DNA of 64,000 bases, taken from the NCBI RefSeq assembly GCF_039536245.1, contig NZ_BAAAYN010000036.1, positions 1 through 64,000 on the forward strand, written 5' to 3'. This stretch comes from Cryptosporangium minutisporangium. Its GTDB lineage: Bacteria; Actinomycetota; Actinomycetes; Mycobacteriales; Cryptosporangiaceae. Below, in pieces: positions 41,909-62,556 of this stretch. Below the pieces are notes generated by a model. It was not told the origin of the DNA and did no database searches. It saw only the letters and a program-made list of their open reading frames with translations. Within the stretch, counting starts at the first letter, position 1; each line of letters begins with the position of its first letter. Both the position numbers and the translations under genes were made by a program.

Positions 41909-42910
41909 TCAGGAATCGAGGCGACGCAGGCGTAGCACGGTGCCGGGTGGCGCTTGCGCGGCCAGCCACAGATCGTCGGGATCGACCACGCCGATCACTG
42001 GATATCCGCCGGTGACCGGGTGGTCGGCGAGGAAGAGCACCGGACCGGACGGTGGAATCTGCAACGCACCGGCCACCATGCCCTCGCTCGGCAGCTCGTC
42101 GGAGACCGCGCGGGCCAGCGGCGGCCCGTCCAGCCGGGCACCGACCCGGTCGCTCTGCGGTGTGACGGTCCAGCCGGTGACGTAGAGGGTCTCGACGGCC
42201 TCCGGGGTGAACCAGTCTTCGCGCGGCCCCGGGTGCACCCGCAGCACCGGCTCCGGCGGAATCTCCGGCTCGACGACCTGCCGGGCCGCGAATCCGGCCC
42301 GTACGCCGTCGAGGTCGAGTTCGCCGTCCGAGACCCAGGTGTCCTCGCGCTCGGCGCGGTCCGTGGCCACTGGGCGGCCGGATGCGTCCGGGCCGGCGTC
42401 GTCCGACGGGCGGGCACCGCCTGACCCGAGCGGAAGACGGTCGCCGTCGCGGACACGTGCCGGGCCGAGCCCGGACAGCGTGTCGGTGCTGCGGCTGCCG
42501 AGCACCGGCTCCACCGCGACGCCGCCGGCGACGGCCAGGTACGCGCGAACGCCGGCGCGAGCGGCGTCCACCCGGATTTCGGCACCGGCGGGAACCCCGA
42601 CCGCGGCACCGTGGGGCACCGGAACCCCGTCCACCGACAGCCGGCAGCGCGCCCCGGTGAGCGCGATCACGACGTCCGCATCGGGCACGGCCACGAGACC
42701 GCCGAGGGTCACCTCCAGCGCCGCCGCGGAGGCGGCGTTGCCGACGAGCGCGTTCGCGCGCGTCAGCGCGGGCAGATCGGCGGCGCCGGACCGCGGGACG
42801 CCCACGTGGGCCCAGCCGGGGCGGCCCCGGTCCTGGACGGTCGTGAGCGGGCCCCCGGACCGGATCGTCAGCACGGACCGGATCGTCAGCACGGACCGGA
42901 TCGTCAGCAC
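41909..42910 (-). CDS. pxpC: 5-oxoprolinase subunit C
   Basis: About 333 residues. PxpC (biotin-dependent carboxyltransferase-like, KipA family) works with PxpA and PxpB to open 5-oxoproline to glutamate using ATP. Family segments are GGPLTTVQDRGRPGW near the start, GSRSTDTLSGLG, QSDRVGARLDGPPL and LADHPVTGGYPVIG. The N-terminus is unusual: VLTIRS occurs three times, giving three in-frame GTG starts at 42910, 42892 and 42874, the first overlapping the pxpB stop. Most relatives would begin at the last one. No pxpA (LamB/YcsF) gene is in the window. Confidence 0.9.
   Translation of the reverse strand: MLTIRSVLTIRSVLTIRSGGPLTTVQDRGRPGWAHVGVPRSGAADLPALTRANALVGNAASAAALEVTLGGLVAVPDADVVIALTGARCRLSVDGVPVPHGAAVGVPAGAEIRVDAARAGVRAYLAVAGGVAVEPVLGSRSTDTLSGLGPARVRDGDRLPLGSGGARPSDDAGPDASGRPVATDRAEREDTWVSDGELDLDGVRAGFAARQVVEPEIPPEPVLRVHPGPREDWFTPEAVETLYVTGWTVTPQSDRVGARLDGPPLARAVSDELPSEGMVAGALQIPPSGPVLFLADHPVTGGYPVIGVVDPDDLWLAAQAPPGTVLRLRRLDS
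42857..42910 (-). repeat. 18-bp triplication over the pxpC start
   Basis: Three perfect consecutive copies of an 18-base unit (42857-42874, 42875-42892, 42893-42910). Each includes GTGCTGA on the minus strand, that is a GTG start codon overlapping a TGA in another frame. The upstream-most TGA ends pxpB. Confidence 0.9.
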
Positions 42911-43488
42911 GGGGTGAACCGCACCCGGTCGCCGGGGGAGAGCAGTGCGGGCGGGTCGGCGGCCGCGTCCCAGAGGGTCTGGTCGGTGCGACCGATCAGC
43001 TGCCAGCCGCCGGGGGAGGGGCGCGGGTACACGCCGGTGAAGTCCCCGGCCAGACCCACCGCGCCGACCGGTACCCGAGTCCGCGGCGAGCTGCGGCGCG
43101 GGACGCGCAACGGCTCCGGGAGCCCGGTGAGGTAGCCGAAGCCGGGTGCGAACCCGGTGAACGCGACCGTGTAGACCGCGCCGGTGTGCAGCGCCACGAC
43201 CCCGTCCACGTCGACGCCGGCCAGGGCGGCGACGTCCTCGAGGTCGGGGCCGTCGTACCGGACACAGATGGTCAGCTCCCGGCCGACCTGCTCCGGCGCT
43301 TCGTCCGGACGCCACGCCGCTGCCCACCGGAGATCCGGGGCCTGGCCGGGACTGGTGCGCACCAGCACGGTGCGCGCCCCCGGGACGACGTCCTCGATCC
43401 CGGGCAGCGCACGCCGGACGATCTCCGCCCGCAGCGCCGCCGGGTCGCTGGTCTCGATCAGTTCGGCGTCCCGACCCATCCGGCTCAT
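42904..43488 (-). CDS. pxpB: 5-oxoprolinase subunit B
   Basis: About 194 residues, KipI/PxpB family. The signature FTGFAPGFGYLTGLP is intact, with ELTICVRYDGPDLEDVA before it and RTDQTLWD near the end. ATG 43488 (or 43479) gives the family N-terminus. It overlaps the pxpC start, so PxpB and PxpC are made together. Confidence 0.9.
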   Translation of the reverse strand: MSRMGRDAELIETSDPAALRAEIVRRALPGIEDVVPGARTVLVRTSPGQAPDLRWAAAWRPDEAPEQVGRELTICVRYDGPDLEDVAALAGVDVDGVVALHTGAVYTVAFTGFAPGFGYLTGLPEPLRVPRRSSPRTRVPVGAVGLAGDFTGVYPRPSPGGWQLIGRTDQTLWDAAADPPALLSPGDRVRFTPC

Positions 43489-58729: not shown

Positions 58730-58790
58730 GCGGCCCGCTGAGAACACTCGCGCTTGGCGGCGCTCGACGAGCAGGCGGCTCAGGCCTGGC
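58727..58790 (+). repeat. Dispersed palindromic repeat family A, copy 6 (fragment)
   Basis: Only the left end is recognisable: TGAGCGGCCCGCTGAG, then CGCGCTTGGCGGCGCTCGACGAG and an early return arm. It starts at the stop codon of the acyl-CoA synthetase gene and runs into the PNP stop. Shorter and more decayed than the other copies. Confidence 0.6.
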
Positions 58791-59586
58791 GAATTAGTTC
58801 TCCCAGGAGGTTGCCCATTCGGGTGGCGGACGCCTTGCCGGCCTCGATCACCTCGTCGTGCGCGAGCGGCTTGCCGGCCATTCCGGCCGCCAGGTTGGTG
58901 ACCAGCGACAGCCCGAACACCTCGGTGCCCCGCGCACGGGCCGCGATGGCCTCCAGCGCCGTCGACATCCCGACCAGGTCGGCGCCGAGCGTCCGGAGCA
59001 TCCGGATCTCGGCCGGCGTCTCGTAGTGCGGCCCGGGCAGCGCCGCGTACACGCCCTCCTCGAGCGAGGGGTCGATCTCCTTGGCCAGGCGCCGCAGCCG
59101 GGGCGAGTACAGATCGGTGAGGTCGACGAACGTCGCGCCGACGAGCGGCGAGCGGCCGGTGAGGTTGAGGTGGTCGCTGATCAGTACCGGCTGGCCGACC
59201 GACATCCCCTGCCGCAGGCCGCCCGCGGCGTTGGTCAGGATGACCGTCCGGCAGCCCGCGGCGGCGGCGACCCGCACTCCGTGGACGACCGGTTCCACAC
59301 CGCGGCCCTCGTACAGGTGGGTGCGCCCGAGGAACACCAGGACCTGCTTGGTGCCGACGGTCAGCGAGCGGACCGTACCGACGTGGCCCACGGCCGACGG
59401 CGGGGTGAACCCGGTGAGGTGGTCGAGCGGGATCTCGGCGTTCGCCTCACCGATCTGGTCGGCGGCCGGGGCCCAACCCGATCCGAGGACGAGCGCAACG
59501 TCGTACTGGCGTACTCCGGTCGCCTCGCCGAGCGCGGTCGCCGCGGAGGCAGCGAGGAACTCAGGGCTGGAGGGGTCGGTCGTCAT
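58780..59586 (-). CDS. Purine nucleoside phosphorylase
   Basis: A 268-residue trimeric PNP (class II, DeoD/PunA-like of low-molecular-mass type) splitting inosine and guanosine nucleosides. The signature [13 protein letters not shown] is present with LGSGWAP at the phosphate loop and [15 protein letters not shown] 59586 gives the family start. Works after adenosine deaminase and before the sugar mutase. Confidence 0.94.
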
Positions 59587-59649
59587 CGTCACGTCCGAGC
59601 AGGCTACTCGCTTACTGCCTGTGCCTGTCACGCGACCGGCACCTGGCGA

Positions 59650-62556
59650 TTACGGAGCGCCGGTGTCGAACTCGAACGAGGCGGTGATCTCGTCGAAGAG
59701 CGTGACGCGGTCCTTGAAGAGCTTCTCCGGGCTGGTCAGGTACACGCTGTACGCCTTGCCGTCCACCACGGCGACCCGCCAGAGACGGTGCTTCTGGACG
59801 CCGCTCTCGGTGTAGACGAACTCCCACTCCCAGGTCTCCTCGCCGCCGAGCTTCTTGGCGGCCTCTTTCCGGTGGATCGTGTCGAAGGCGCTGATCTGCC
59901 CGTCTTCCAGGCGCTTCTGCTGGTAGTTCTCGGCGCTCTTCAGGTGCTGCTCCGGTGACGAGCCGTTCTCGACCAGCACCCGCAGCTTGTCACCGTCGAT
60001 GCTGTCGTAGTCGACGTAGGTGCTGGCCTCCTTGGCCGTCCAGTCGGCGGGGGCCTTCAGCGTGAAACCCCGCTCCGAGTAGGAGTACGACTTCAGGTCG
60101 ACCCCGCTGCGCGCCGGGGCGGACACCGTCGGCCGCGGGGACGTGGCGTTGTCGTCACCGGACGCGGCCACGCTCACCACGTAGCTGATCAGGCCGATCA
60201 GCAGGACGGCGACCACGATCGCGACGACGATGAGCACGGTCCGGCGTCGGCTCTGCGGGCCGGCCGACCCCGGCGTACCGGACAGGTCGGGCGGCTGCGG
60301 CGACACCATCGTGTGGCCACCGACTCCGGAGGCGCCGAGGTATGCCGAGCGGCGCGGGGAGGACGACGGCGGCGGGGTGGACGGCAGCGGCGCCGTGGAG
60401 TTCCCCGGCTCACCGTAGTTGGGCGCACCACCGTACGGGGTGCCGTACGTCGTGGCTCCGTAGCCGGGCGGCGGCCCTTGAGTTCCCGGTGGTCCCTGCG
60501 GGGGCGGCGTCGGCGTCAGGCCCGGCACGCGGGCGTACCCCGACATCGGGTGCTGTCCAGGCGGCTGCTGACCGGGCGCGTGCTGCCCGTGCTGCCCGCC
60601 TCCGTGCTGCCCGCCTCCGTGCTGCCCGCCTCCGTGCTGCCCGCCTCCGTGCTGCCCGCCTCCGTGCTGCCCGCCTCCGTGCTGCCCGCCTCCGTGCTGC
60701 CCGCCTCCGTGCTGCCCGCCTCCGTGCTGCCCGCCTCCGTGCTGCCCGCCTCCGTGCTGCCCGCCTCCGTGCTGCCCGCCTCCGTGCTGCCCGCCTCCGT
60801 GCTGCCCGCCTCCGTGCTGCCCGCCTCCGTGCTGCCCGCCTCCGTGCTGCCCGCCTCCGTGCTGCCCGCCTCCGTGCTGCCCGCCTCCGTGCTGCCCGCC
60901 TCCGTGCTGCCCGCCTCCGTGCTGCCCGCCTCCGTGCTGCCCGCCTCCGTGCTGCCCGCCTCCGTGCTGCCCGCCTCCGTGCTGCCCGCCTCCGTGCTGC
61001 CCGCCTCCGTGCTGCCCGCCTCCGTGCTGCCCGCCTCCGTGCTGGCCGGGCCCGTGCTGGCCGGGCCCGTGCTGGCCCGGAGGCGGCTGCTGGCCGGGCA
61101 TGGGCTGCGGCCCCGGACCGACGTGCTGACCAGGAACCGAGACGCTGCCGCGCACGGTGGCGCGACCGCCGGCCCGCGCCGGCCCACCGCTGTGCGGCGC
61201 GACACCGGGCTCCGGCTTGTCGGTCGGCCCCGCGTTGCCCATCCCACCGGACGTCGGCCTGGCGTCCGACTGATCGGCGGGCAGCGACGGCACACCGTCC
61301 GTGGTGAAGGGGTTGACGGCCATCGCCGCGGTGCCGTCCGGCGCGCCGCGCTGGCCGGACGCGCCCTCGCCGGGCGAGCCCGGGCCCGAGACCGGCTTCG
61401 CCGGGCCGGAGGAGCCGGGAGGCGGCGGCGGTGCACCCGGCGGTGCGGGCGGCACCGCACGGTTCGCCGGTGTTCCGCTGGGCGGCGGGGGCGGCGGGGG
61501 CGGCGGTGTGCCGGGGGAGGCGCTCGCCGGCGTTCCCTGAGCCGCGCCCGGCGCAGCCGACAGCGGCCCGCCGGGGGTGCCGGGCGGCACGGCGGGGCTG
61601 GGGCTCGGGTCCTCGCGACGGCGCCGCAGGTTCTGCAACCGGTCGGCGGGTCCGGACTGCCGGGGCGCCCGCCCGCCGCCGTCGAGCGACGTGATGCGGC
61701 CGCCGGACAGCACCGTGCGCAACGCGTTCCGCGTCTTGATCGCGTCCCAGCGCTGTTCCGGGTCTTTCTCCAGCAGGCCGAGCAGCACCGGCGCCAGGGG
61801 CCCGGCGAACGCCATCTGGTCGGGGGGCTCGACGACGACCGCGGTCATCGTCGGCAGCGGGTCACCGCGGTCGAACGGCGGACGCCCTTCGACGGCGGTG
61901 TAGAGCGTGGCGCCGAGCGAGAACAGGTCGCTCGGCGGGCCGAACGGACGCCCGCGGGCCCGCTCCGGCGCGATGTACTGCGGTGAGCCGAGCAGCAGCC
62001 CGGTGCTGGTCAGCGGCGACTCGTTGGGGGAGCGCGCGACCCCGAAGTCGGTCAGCGTCACCCGTCCGTCGGTGCCGAGCAGCACGTTGCCCGGCTTGAC
62101 GTCACGGTGCAGCACGCCGACCCGGTGGGCGGCCTCCAAGGCGCCGAGCACGGCCAGCCCGATCTCGGCGACGCGGTCGTAGGGCAGCGGGCCCTCGTCC
62201 CGGAGCGTGTCCGCGAGGCTCGCGGCGTCGAGCAGCTCCATCACGATCCACGGGCGGTCGCCGTCGTTCACGACGTCGTAGACCCGGATCACGGCGGGGT
62301 GGTTCAGAGCCGCGGCGGCGCGCGCCTCGCGGAGCGTCCGCTCGCAGAGGACGGACCGCTCCGGCGCCGGGATACCCGGTGGGAGCAGGACCTCTTTGAC
62401 CGCGACTTCGCGGCGGAGCAGCTCGTCGAAAGCGCGCCAAACCGTCCCCATGCCACCGGACCCCACGGACGATCGCAGGGTGTACCGTCTGCCGACGGTC
62501 CGGCCATCGGGCGCCTTCGCGGCCGAGGTGCCGTCTACCGGGGTGGGTGCGTCCAC
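59650..62556 (-). CDS. Membrane Ser/Thr protein kinase with His-rich repeat
   Basis: A 968-residue PknB-type kinase. Kinase domain 25-280 has VGSGGMGTVW, Lys54, HRDVKPGN (150-157) and DFG (170-172), all intact. A Pro/Gly-rich linker follows, containing about 29 exact GGGQH-type pentapeptides (residues about 508-652). A membrane span lies at about 770-795, and the extracellular domain (800-968) is of unknown fold with no PASTA repeats. The linker is cytoplasmic, so the roughly 30 histidines could bind metal near the kinase domain. GTG/ATG choice: the ATG at 62556 has an AAAGGT upstream. Confidence 0.93.
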   Translation of the reverse strand: MDAPTPVDGTSAAKAPDGRTVGRRYTLRSSVGSGGMGTVWRAFDELLRREVAVKEVLLPPGIPAPERSVLCERTLREARAAAALNHPAVIRVYDVVNDGDRPWIVMELLDAASLADTLRDEGPLPYDRVAEIGLAVLGALEAAHRVGVLHRDVKPGNVLLGTDGRVTLTDFGVARSPNESPLTSTGLLLGSPQYIAPERARGRPFGPPSDLFSLGATLYTAVEGRPPFDRGDPLPTMTAVVVEPPDQMAFAGPLAPVLLGLLEKDPEQRWDAIKTRNALRTVLSGGRITSLDGGGRAPRQSGPADRLQNLRRRREDPSPSPAVPPGTPGGPLSAAPGAAQGTPASASPGTPPPPPPPPPSGTPANRAVPPAPPGAPPPPPGSSGPAKPVSGPGSPGEGASGQRGAPDGTAAMAVNPFTTDGVPSLPADQSDARPTSGGMGNAGPTDKPEPGVAPHSGGPARAGGRATVRGSVSVPGQHVGPGPQPMPGQQPPPGQHGPGQHGPGQHGGGQHGGGQHGGGQHGGGQHGGGQHGGGQHGGGQHGGGQHGGGQHGGGQHGGGQHGGGQHGGGQHGGGQHGGGQHGGGQHGGGQHGGGQHGGGQHGGGQHGGGQHGGGQHGGGQHGGGQHGGGQHGGGQHGGGQHGGGQHGGGQHGGGQHGQHAPGQQPPGQHPMSGYARVPGLTPTPPPQGPPGTQGPPPGYGATTYGTPYGGAPNYGEPGNSTAPLPSTPPPSSSPRRSAYLGASGVGGHTMVSPQPPDLSGTPGSAGPQSRRRTVLIVVAIVVAVLLIGLISYVVSVAASGDDNATSPRPTVSAPARSGVDLKSYSYSERGFTLKAPADWTAKEASTYVDYDSIDGDKLRVLVENGSSPEQHLKSAENYQQKRLEDGQISAFDTIHRKEAAKKLGGEETWEWEFVYTESGVQKHRLWRVAVVDGKAYSVYLTSPEKLFKDRVTLFDEITASFEFDTGAP
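60601..61035 (-). repeat. Tandem repeat: 29 perfect 15-bp units
   Basis: TCCGTGCTGCCCGCC repeated 29 times without a single change, with variant units on both flanks (near-copy at 60586-60600; three variants at 61036-61080). On the coding (minus) strand each unit encodes Gly-Gly-Gly-Gln-His. Because the unit is a multiple of three, all frames stay open across it. Confidence 0.97.

Follow-up and report, generated by a model that had tools for sequence, protein, structure and literature searches.

A Ser/Thr protein kinase gene on the minus strand at positions 59650-62556 of the window (the whole stretch of 64,000 nt from Cryptosporangium minutisporangium that was analysed) contains 30 identical 15-bp units at 60589-61038, and this array is probably a coding minisatellite, located in a spacer of the protein that is under weak constraint. 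The unit, GGAGGCGGGCAGCAC on the coding strand, is repeated 30 times in the assembled sequence, and the product is (Gly-Gly-Gly-Gln-His)30, corresponding to kinase residues 507-656. A previous reading of the sequence alone had placed 29 units at 60601-61035, which correctly recognised the array and counted one unit too few, as these 435 bp represent 29 units of the same run read out of phase. Its remark that no base change occurs among the units applies to 30/30 units in the assembled sequence, with the copy number in the DNA of the organism being a separate matter, and the proposed position of the array, in frame within a Ser/Thr kinase linker, was confirmed, the gene having a Pkinase match with an E-value of 5.5e-43.

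The repeat array and the kinase that carries it

The longest exact period-15 run was 458 bp (60587-61044), and TRF reported 32.8 copies with 98% matches and a score of 921. Three imperfect related units (PPGQH, GPGQH and GPGQH, at 61039-61083 on the minus strand) are located N-terminal to the array. A chance origin of the array is excluded, since 500 codon shuffles of the kinase gene gave period-15 runs of at most 27 bp, compared to the 458 bp observed. The codon at each of the three Gly positions is invariant across the 30 units, which points to copying of the units at the DNA level; the GGA codon fixed at one of these positions represents only 9% of the other 103 Gly codons of the gene, and the probability of such fixed Gly codons under independent codon choice is near 10^-61. 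The 30-bp double unit had no exact match elsewhere in its own genome, and was absent from all genome_contigs records, from which records very near the window's genome may have been excluded. Five units folded better than shuffled sequences on the coding strand (z -3.33), with a z of -0.41 for the opposite strand and with quadruplexes being outside the folding model, and such folding of the coding strand might assist slippage. Antisense reading frames at 60313-61986 and 60342-61307 on the plus strand, as well as a second minus-strand frame at 60516-61460, run across the array, and their being open is explained by the absence of stop codons from the unit in these frames; they were rejected as genes.

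The kinase gene encodes 968 amino acids from a GTG startcodon. The kinase domain (residues 25-271, 61744-62484 on the minus strand, Pfam PF00069) has its motifs intact, with GSGGMGTV at residue 32, VAVKEV at 51, HRDVKPGN at 150, DFGVA at 170 and APE at 196, and the weak Pfam matches to APH, ABC1 and Kdo all overlap this domain, while the PsbP_2 and INV_N matches were below their own cut-offs. The domain is followed by a low-complexity linker rich in Gly, Pro, Gln, His and Ala (residues 272-772, 60241-61743, minus strand), which separates the kinase domain from a single predicted transmembrane helix at approximately residues 773-795 (60172-60240, minus strand). This helix was recognised by eye as a hydrophobic stretch rather than by a topology program, and is preceded by the sequence RRR. 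Based on the position of the kinase domain and this RRR motif, the linker is taken to be cytosolic, and it is presumably disordered. The predicted outer domain (59653-60105, minus strand) has a PsbP fold: it matched Pfam PsbP (PF01789) with an E-value of 3.8e-07 and 30.7 bits, above the cut-off of 23.5, and AlphaFold2 modelled the last 151 residues with a mean pLDDT of 95. The best Foldseek match in the PDB was the cyanobacterial PsbP 2xb3 (E 4.8e-10, TM 0.73), with LpqN of M. tuberculosis (6e5d) at rank 22 (E 1.2e-05). The NCBIfam PknB/PASTA model NF033483 aligned to residues 18-289 only, with 236.3 bits and hence below its cut-off of 450, and there was no PASTA repeat among the matches listed for the outer part, where the domain is PsbP. 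The next gene on the same strand (58780-59631), which we take to be purine nucleoside phosphorylase-like, is separated from the kinase frame by 18 bp, and a relative of this gene is located directly downstream of the kinase in all three congeners compared.

The linker in related species and other arrays in the genome

The kinase was compared between four genomes of the genus, with one genome per species: that of the window (G000) and three congeners (G001, G002 and the single-contig genome G003). The segment bounded by VRGSVSV and ARVPG is 212 aa long in G000, 114 aa in G002, 33 aa in G001 and 31 aa in G003, and contains 36, 16, 0 and 0 His residues, respectively, with 38, 19, 1 and 7 His residues in the whole linker. 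The linker as a whole measures 493 aa in G000, versus 291, 314 and 426 aa in the three congeners. In G002 the segment holds an array that is rich in QH but degenerate (11.8 copies of 15 bp with 81% matches by TRF), while the G003 segment has 1.9 copies of a related unit, and the G001 segment is devoid of a GGGQH-type repeat, with a different short 18-bp array (3.7 copies) elsewhere in its linker. At the species level, G002, G003 and G001 thus have about 12, about 2 and 0 units, compared to the 30 in-frame, tandem and identical units of G000. Identity to each of the three congeners is 98% over the first 280 residues, and identity of the outer domain to that of G000 is 81% for G002, 69% for G003 and 62% for G001. 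Since the segment and its His residues vary while the kinase domain stays 98% identical, these alignments indicate that, of all parts of the kinase, the linker is under by far the weakest constraint and that His content is not a conserved feature, although two of the four species are QH-rich at this site. The idea that a change in copy number alters only the length of the linker agrees with the in-frame unit and with the segment lengths across the species; as one genome was compared per species, the length variation inferred from these sequences is variation between species. In G003, the linker of another kinase (L143:4430-4512) contains GHGNS, a pentapeptide unit that includes a His, in 5.5 copies which are 97% alike.

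An array of this kind is not unique to the kinase at 59650-62556, a possibility that was rejected upon finding further long arrays in the same genome. A second Ser/Thr kinase (C17:633418-633900, L128:2419-2901) has approximately 31 PPISG-type 15-bp units in its linker, with inner variants and an exact 105-bp higher-order pattern extending over 374 bp, and its relative in G003 has approximately 6 of these units, while that in G001 has a few at scattered positions. Among 11 further kinase regions of G000 that were analysed, this was the one with a long array; four had short arrays (3-8 copies, located anywhere within the stretch analysed), and six lacked arrays of at least 3 copies. Similarly, a 936-aa membrane protein (C44:207148-207709, L176:7148-7709) contains approximately 30 copies of an 18-bp unit encoding GGPTGP before a hydrophobic helix, with an exact run of 511 bp, and the corresponding locus has short or degenerate runs in all three congeners. 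Both the PPISG and the GGPTGP loci hence behave like the GGGQH array, and neither of the two units contains His. Long near-perfect arrays of 32-bp and 14-bp units were detected in the same genome at L172:9731-10278 and L234:10047-10551, with total lengths nearly equal to those of the coding arrays. Outside the window, the long arrays of this genome are situated at about 570.0 and 633.4 kb of C17 and at about 129.7 and 207.1 kb of C44. Open frames traverse both, but they are probably non-coding, since the unit lengths are not divisible by three and the 14-bp array starts at the 3′ end of a 597-aa frame. The window itself has an additional short perfect array at 42856-42912 (18 bp, 3.2 copies).

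A survey of exact periodic runs covered 1.264 Mb of G000 and 0.4 Mb each of G002, G003 and G018. Ten runs of at least 100 bp were found in G000 (511, 505, 479, 458, 374, 256, 186, 177, 151 and 101 bp), while runs in the G002, G003 and G018 samples reached no more than 113, 113 and 142 bp, respectively. Nine runs in the G000 sample, and none in the combined 1.2 Mb of the other three, measured 150 bp or more (Fisher P 0.0025 on kilobases). This contrast is somewhat inflated by the non-random G000 sample, which included the window, selected because of its array, as well as contigs with previously identified kinases or arrays. TRF arrays with at least 15 copies showed a similar distribution in the surveyed samples (6 in G000, 1 in G002, 0 in G003 and 0 in G018). 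Arrays of at least 3 copies numbered 72 in the 1.264 Mb of G000, versus 24 (G003), 34 (G002) and 54 (G018) in 0.4 Mb each, which corresponds to densities of 57, 60, 85 and 135 per Mb, respectively. G000 hence stands out in long perfect arrays only, and not in ordinary array density. Loss of NucS, the actinobacterial mismatch-repair nuclease, was rejected as the cause of the long arrays, as NucS is present in G000 as well as in the three congeners.

Assembly, tether length and metal binding as alternatives

The G000 assembly is a draft of 152 contigs, and its four longest exact runs are within 53 bp of each other despite their unlike units: 511 bp (18-bp unit), 505 bp (14-bp unit), 479 bp (32-bp unit) and 458 bp (15-bp unit), with none in the sample being longer. 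For the top four of ten runs, such clustering has a chance probability of 0.010 with an exponential tail and 0.001 with a Pareto tail. In addition, a tandem repeat was present within 30 bp of 9/25 contig ends versus 20/400 interior points (on C6, C17 and C44; P 9e-6). The window starts inside a G+C-rich tandem repeat (1-101) at its contig start, as is common at the contig ends of this assembly. Exact tandem repeats produce cycles in de Bruijn graphs, and the inserts of read pairs usually span 500 bp to 1 kb (PMC4582210). An array that is shorter, longer or slightly varied in the organism could thus form a graph cycle and be output as identical copies up to the length bridged by read pairs, and it is quite possible, if somewhat short of probable, that both the unit count and the perfect identity are for the most part products of assembly, which can coexist with the minisatellite reading. 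Some array must exist, because a graph cycle only forms where a genuine perfect array exceeds the k-mer in length; the clustering is only weakly surprising under a ceiling imposed by the reads (0.12 and 0.044), and such a ceiling alone would explain much of it. The array of the second kinase, furthermore, includes inner variants in its 105-bp higher-order pattern. A perfect array is therefore very likely to exist in the organism, but 30 is not a safe copy number, as arrays of this type seem to be capped at about 0.5 kb in the draft, and since exact runs cluster at 458-511 bp and contig ends are repeat-rich, the number and uniformity of the units may derive partly from assembly. The very recent expansion deduced earlier from the perfect units remains plausible, but loses part of its force for the same reasons, and the perfect identity says less about recency than it seems to. 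Long perfect arrays in draft genomes need a check for an assembly ceiling before a copy number or a very recent expansion is claimed. Conversely, if the copy numbers are real, the lineage may have undergone a burst of long perfect minisatellites at many loci (units of 14-105 bp), repeatedly in the linkers of membrane-signalling proteins, with kinase tether lengths varying quickly between strains. We consider such a burst unlikely, as arrays of at least 3 copies are no denser in G000 (57 per Mb) than in G003, G002 and G018; real copy numbers would, however, make this genome well suited as a natural system for studying variation of tether length in several signalling proteins together.

Two further explanations assign a function to the expanded linker. 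Longer, more flexible linkers may be advantageous to membrane proteins, so that expansions are kept, and three of the five longest arrays sampled, those of the two kinases and of the 936-aa membrane protein, are indeed located in low-complexity linkers before a membrane helix. The remaining two have units of 14 and 32 bp, which are not multiples of three, and the congeners manage with linkers of only 291, 314 and 426 aa, making selection for tether length a rather improbable explanation. Alternatively, the His residue at every fifth position may bind Ni, Zn, Co or Cu, as had been suggested in the sequence-only reading, and alter the shape of the linker or the activity of the kinase. In the strongest version of this proposal, each His with three Gly would bind Cu(II) via imidazole and backbone amides in the manner of the octarepeats of mammalian prion proteins, and the protein does contain the His-Gly-Gly-Gly step 30 times. 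Octarepeats are described as binding Cu(II) with Kd values from 0.12 nM to 7-12 µM, the ligands being either four imidazoles or a single imidazole together with two amide nitrogens and a carbonyl, and, like the array, they are tandem units in which a His precedes glycines within a flexible chain (PMC4101497). The GGGQH unit has five residues and is part of a bacterial kinase, in a predicted cytosolic location, and the similarity is one of resemblance only. His-rich low-complexity regions are also enriched in Ni-binding and cobalamin-synthesis proteins, but those of the latter (n=82) average 53% His, 23% Asp and 9% Glu (PMC6821194), whereas the array has 20% His and no acidic residue. A His-rich segment is present at this site in two of the four species, but the segment is devoid of His in two of the three congeners, which counts against a conserved metal-sensor function, and the His-free PPISG and GGPTGP units have expanded equally elsewhere in the genome. 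In addition, free Cu(II) is scarce in the cytosol, the predicted location of the linker. Metal binding by the GGGQH linker is thus possible on chemical grounds, by analogy, but a metal-dependent role is very improbable given the His counts of 36, 16, 0 and 0 in G000, G002, G001 and G003.

A probable minisatellite in a loose spacer and its known counterparts

The minisatellite reading would combine these observations as follows. The protein is predicted to be a cytosolic kinase, which a long linker of low complexity tethers to a single membrane helix, with a PsbP-fold domain outside. A Gly/Pro-Gln-His seed within the linker may have been multiplied in steps of 15 bp by strand slippage, which we infer, or by unequal recombination, with the linker gaining five flexible residues per step and the reading frame being preserved. 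The linker appears to tolerate widely different lengths and compositions, and for this reason the array is probably nearly neutral, with any effect exerted at most via the length of the tether. The occurrence of QH-rich expansions at the same site in two of the four species argues against a near-neutral spacer, and could be due either to chance from a shared seed or to weak selection for such residues. What the comparison does illustrate is that the length and composition of a kinase linker can shift far while the kinase domain stays 98% identical.

Coding minisatellites, or VNTRs, in low-complexity regions of proteins are a known kind of element, and the GGGQH array resembles them in its in-frame unit, its identical tandem copies and its unlike lengths in related genomes, with the differences that its variation is known at the species level and that its copy number stems from a draft assembly. 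In its architecture of an N-terminal kinase domain, a linker, one membrane helix and an outer domain, the protein is similar to membrane kinases of the PknB (Hanks) type, but it is far below the NF033483 cut-off (236 vs 450 bits) and has an outer domain with a PsbP fold. This domain is akin to PsbP/CyanoP and LpqN-like domains, based on the Pfam PsbP score above cut-off and the matches to 2xb3 and 6e5d, and differs from them in forming the outer part of a kinase. In kind, the array is ordinary, and its size and the presence of similar arrays alongside it make it mildly notable.
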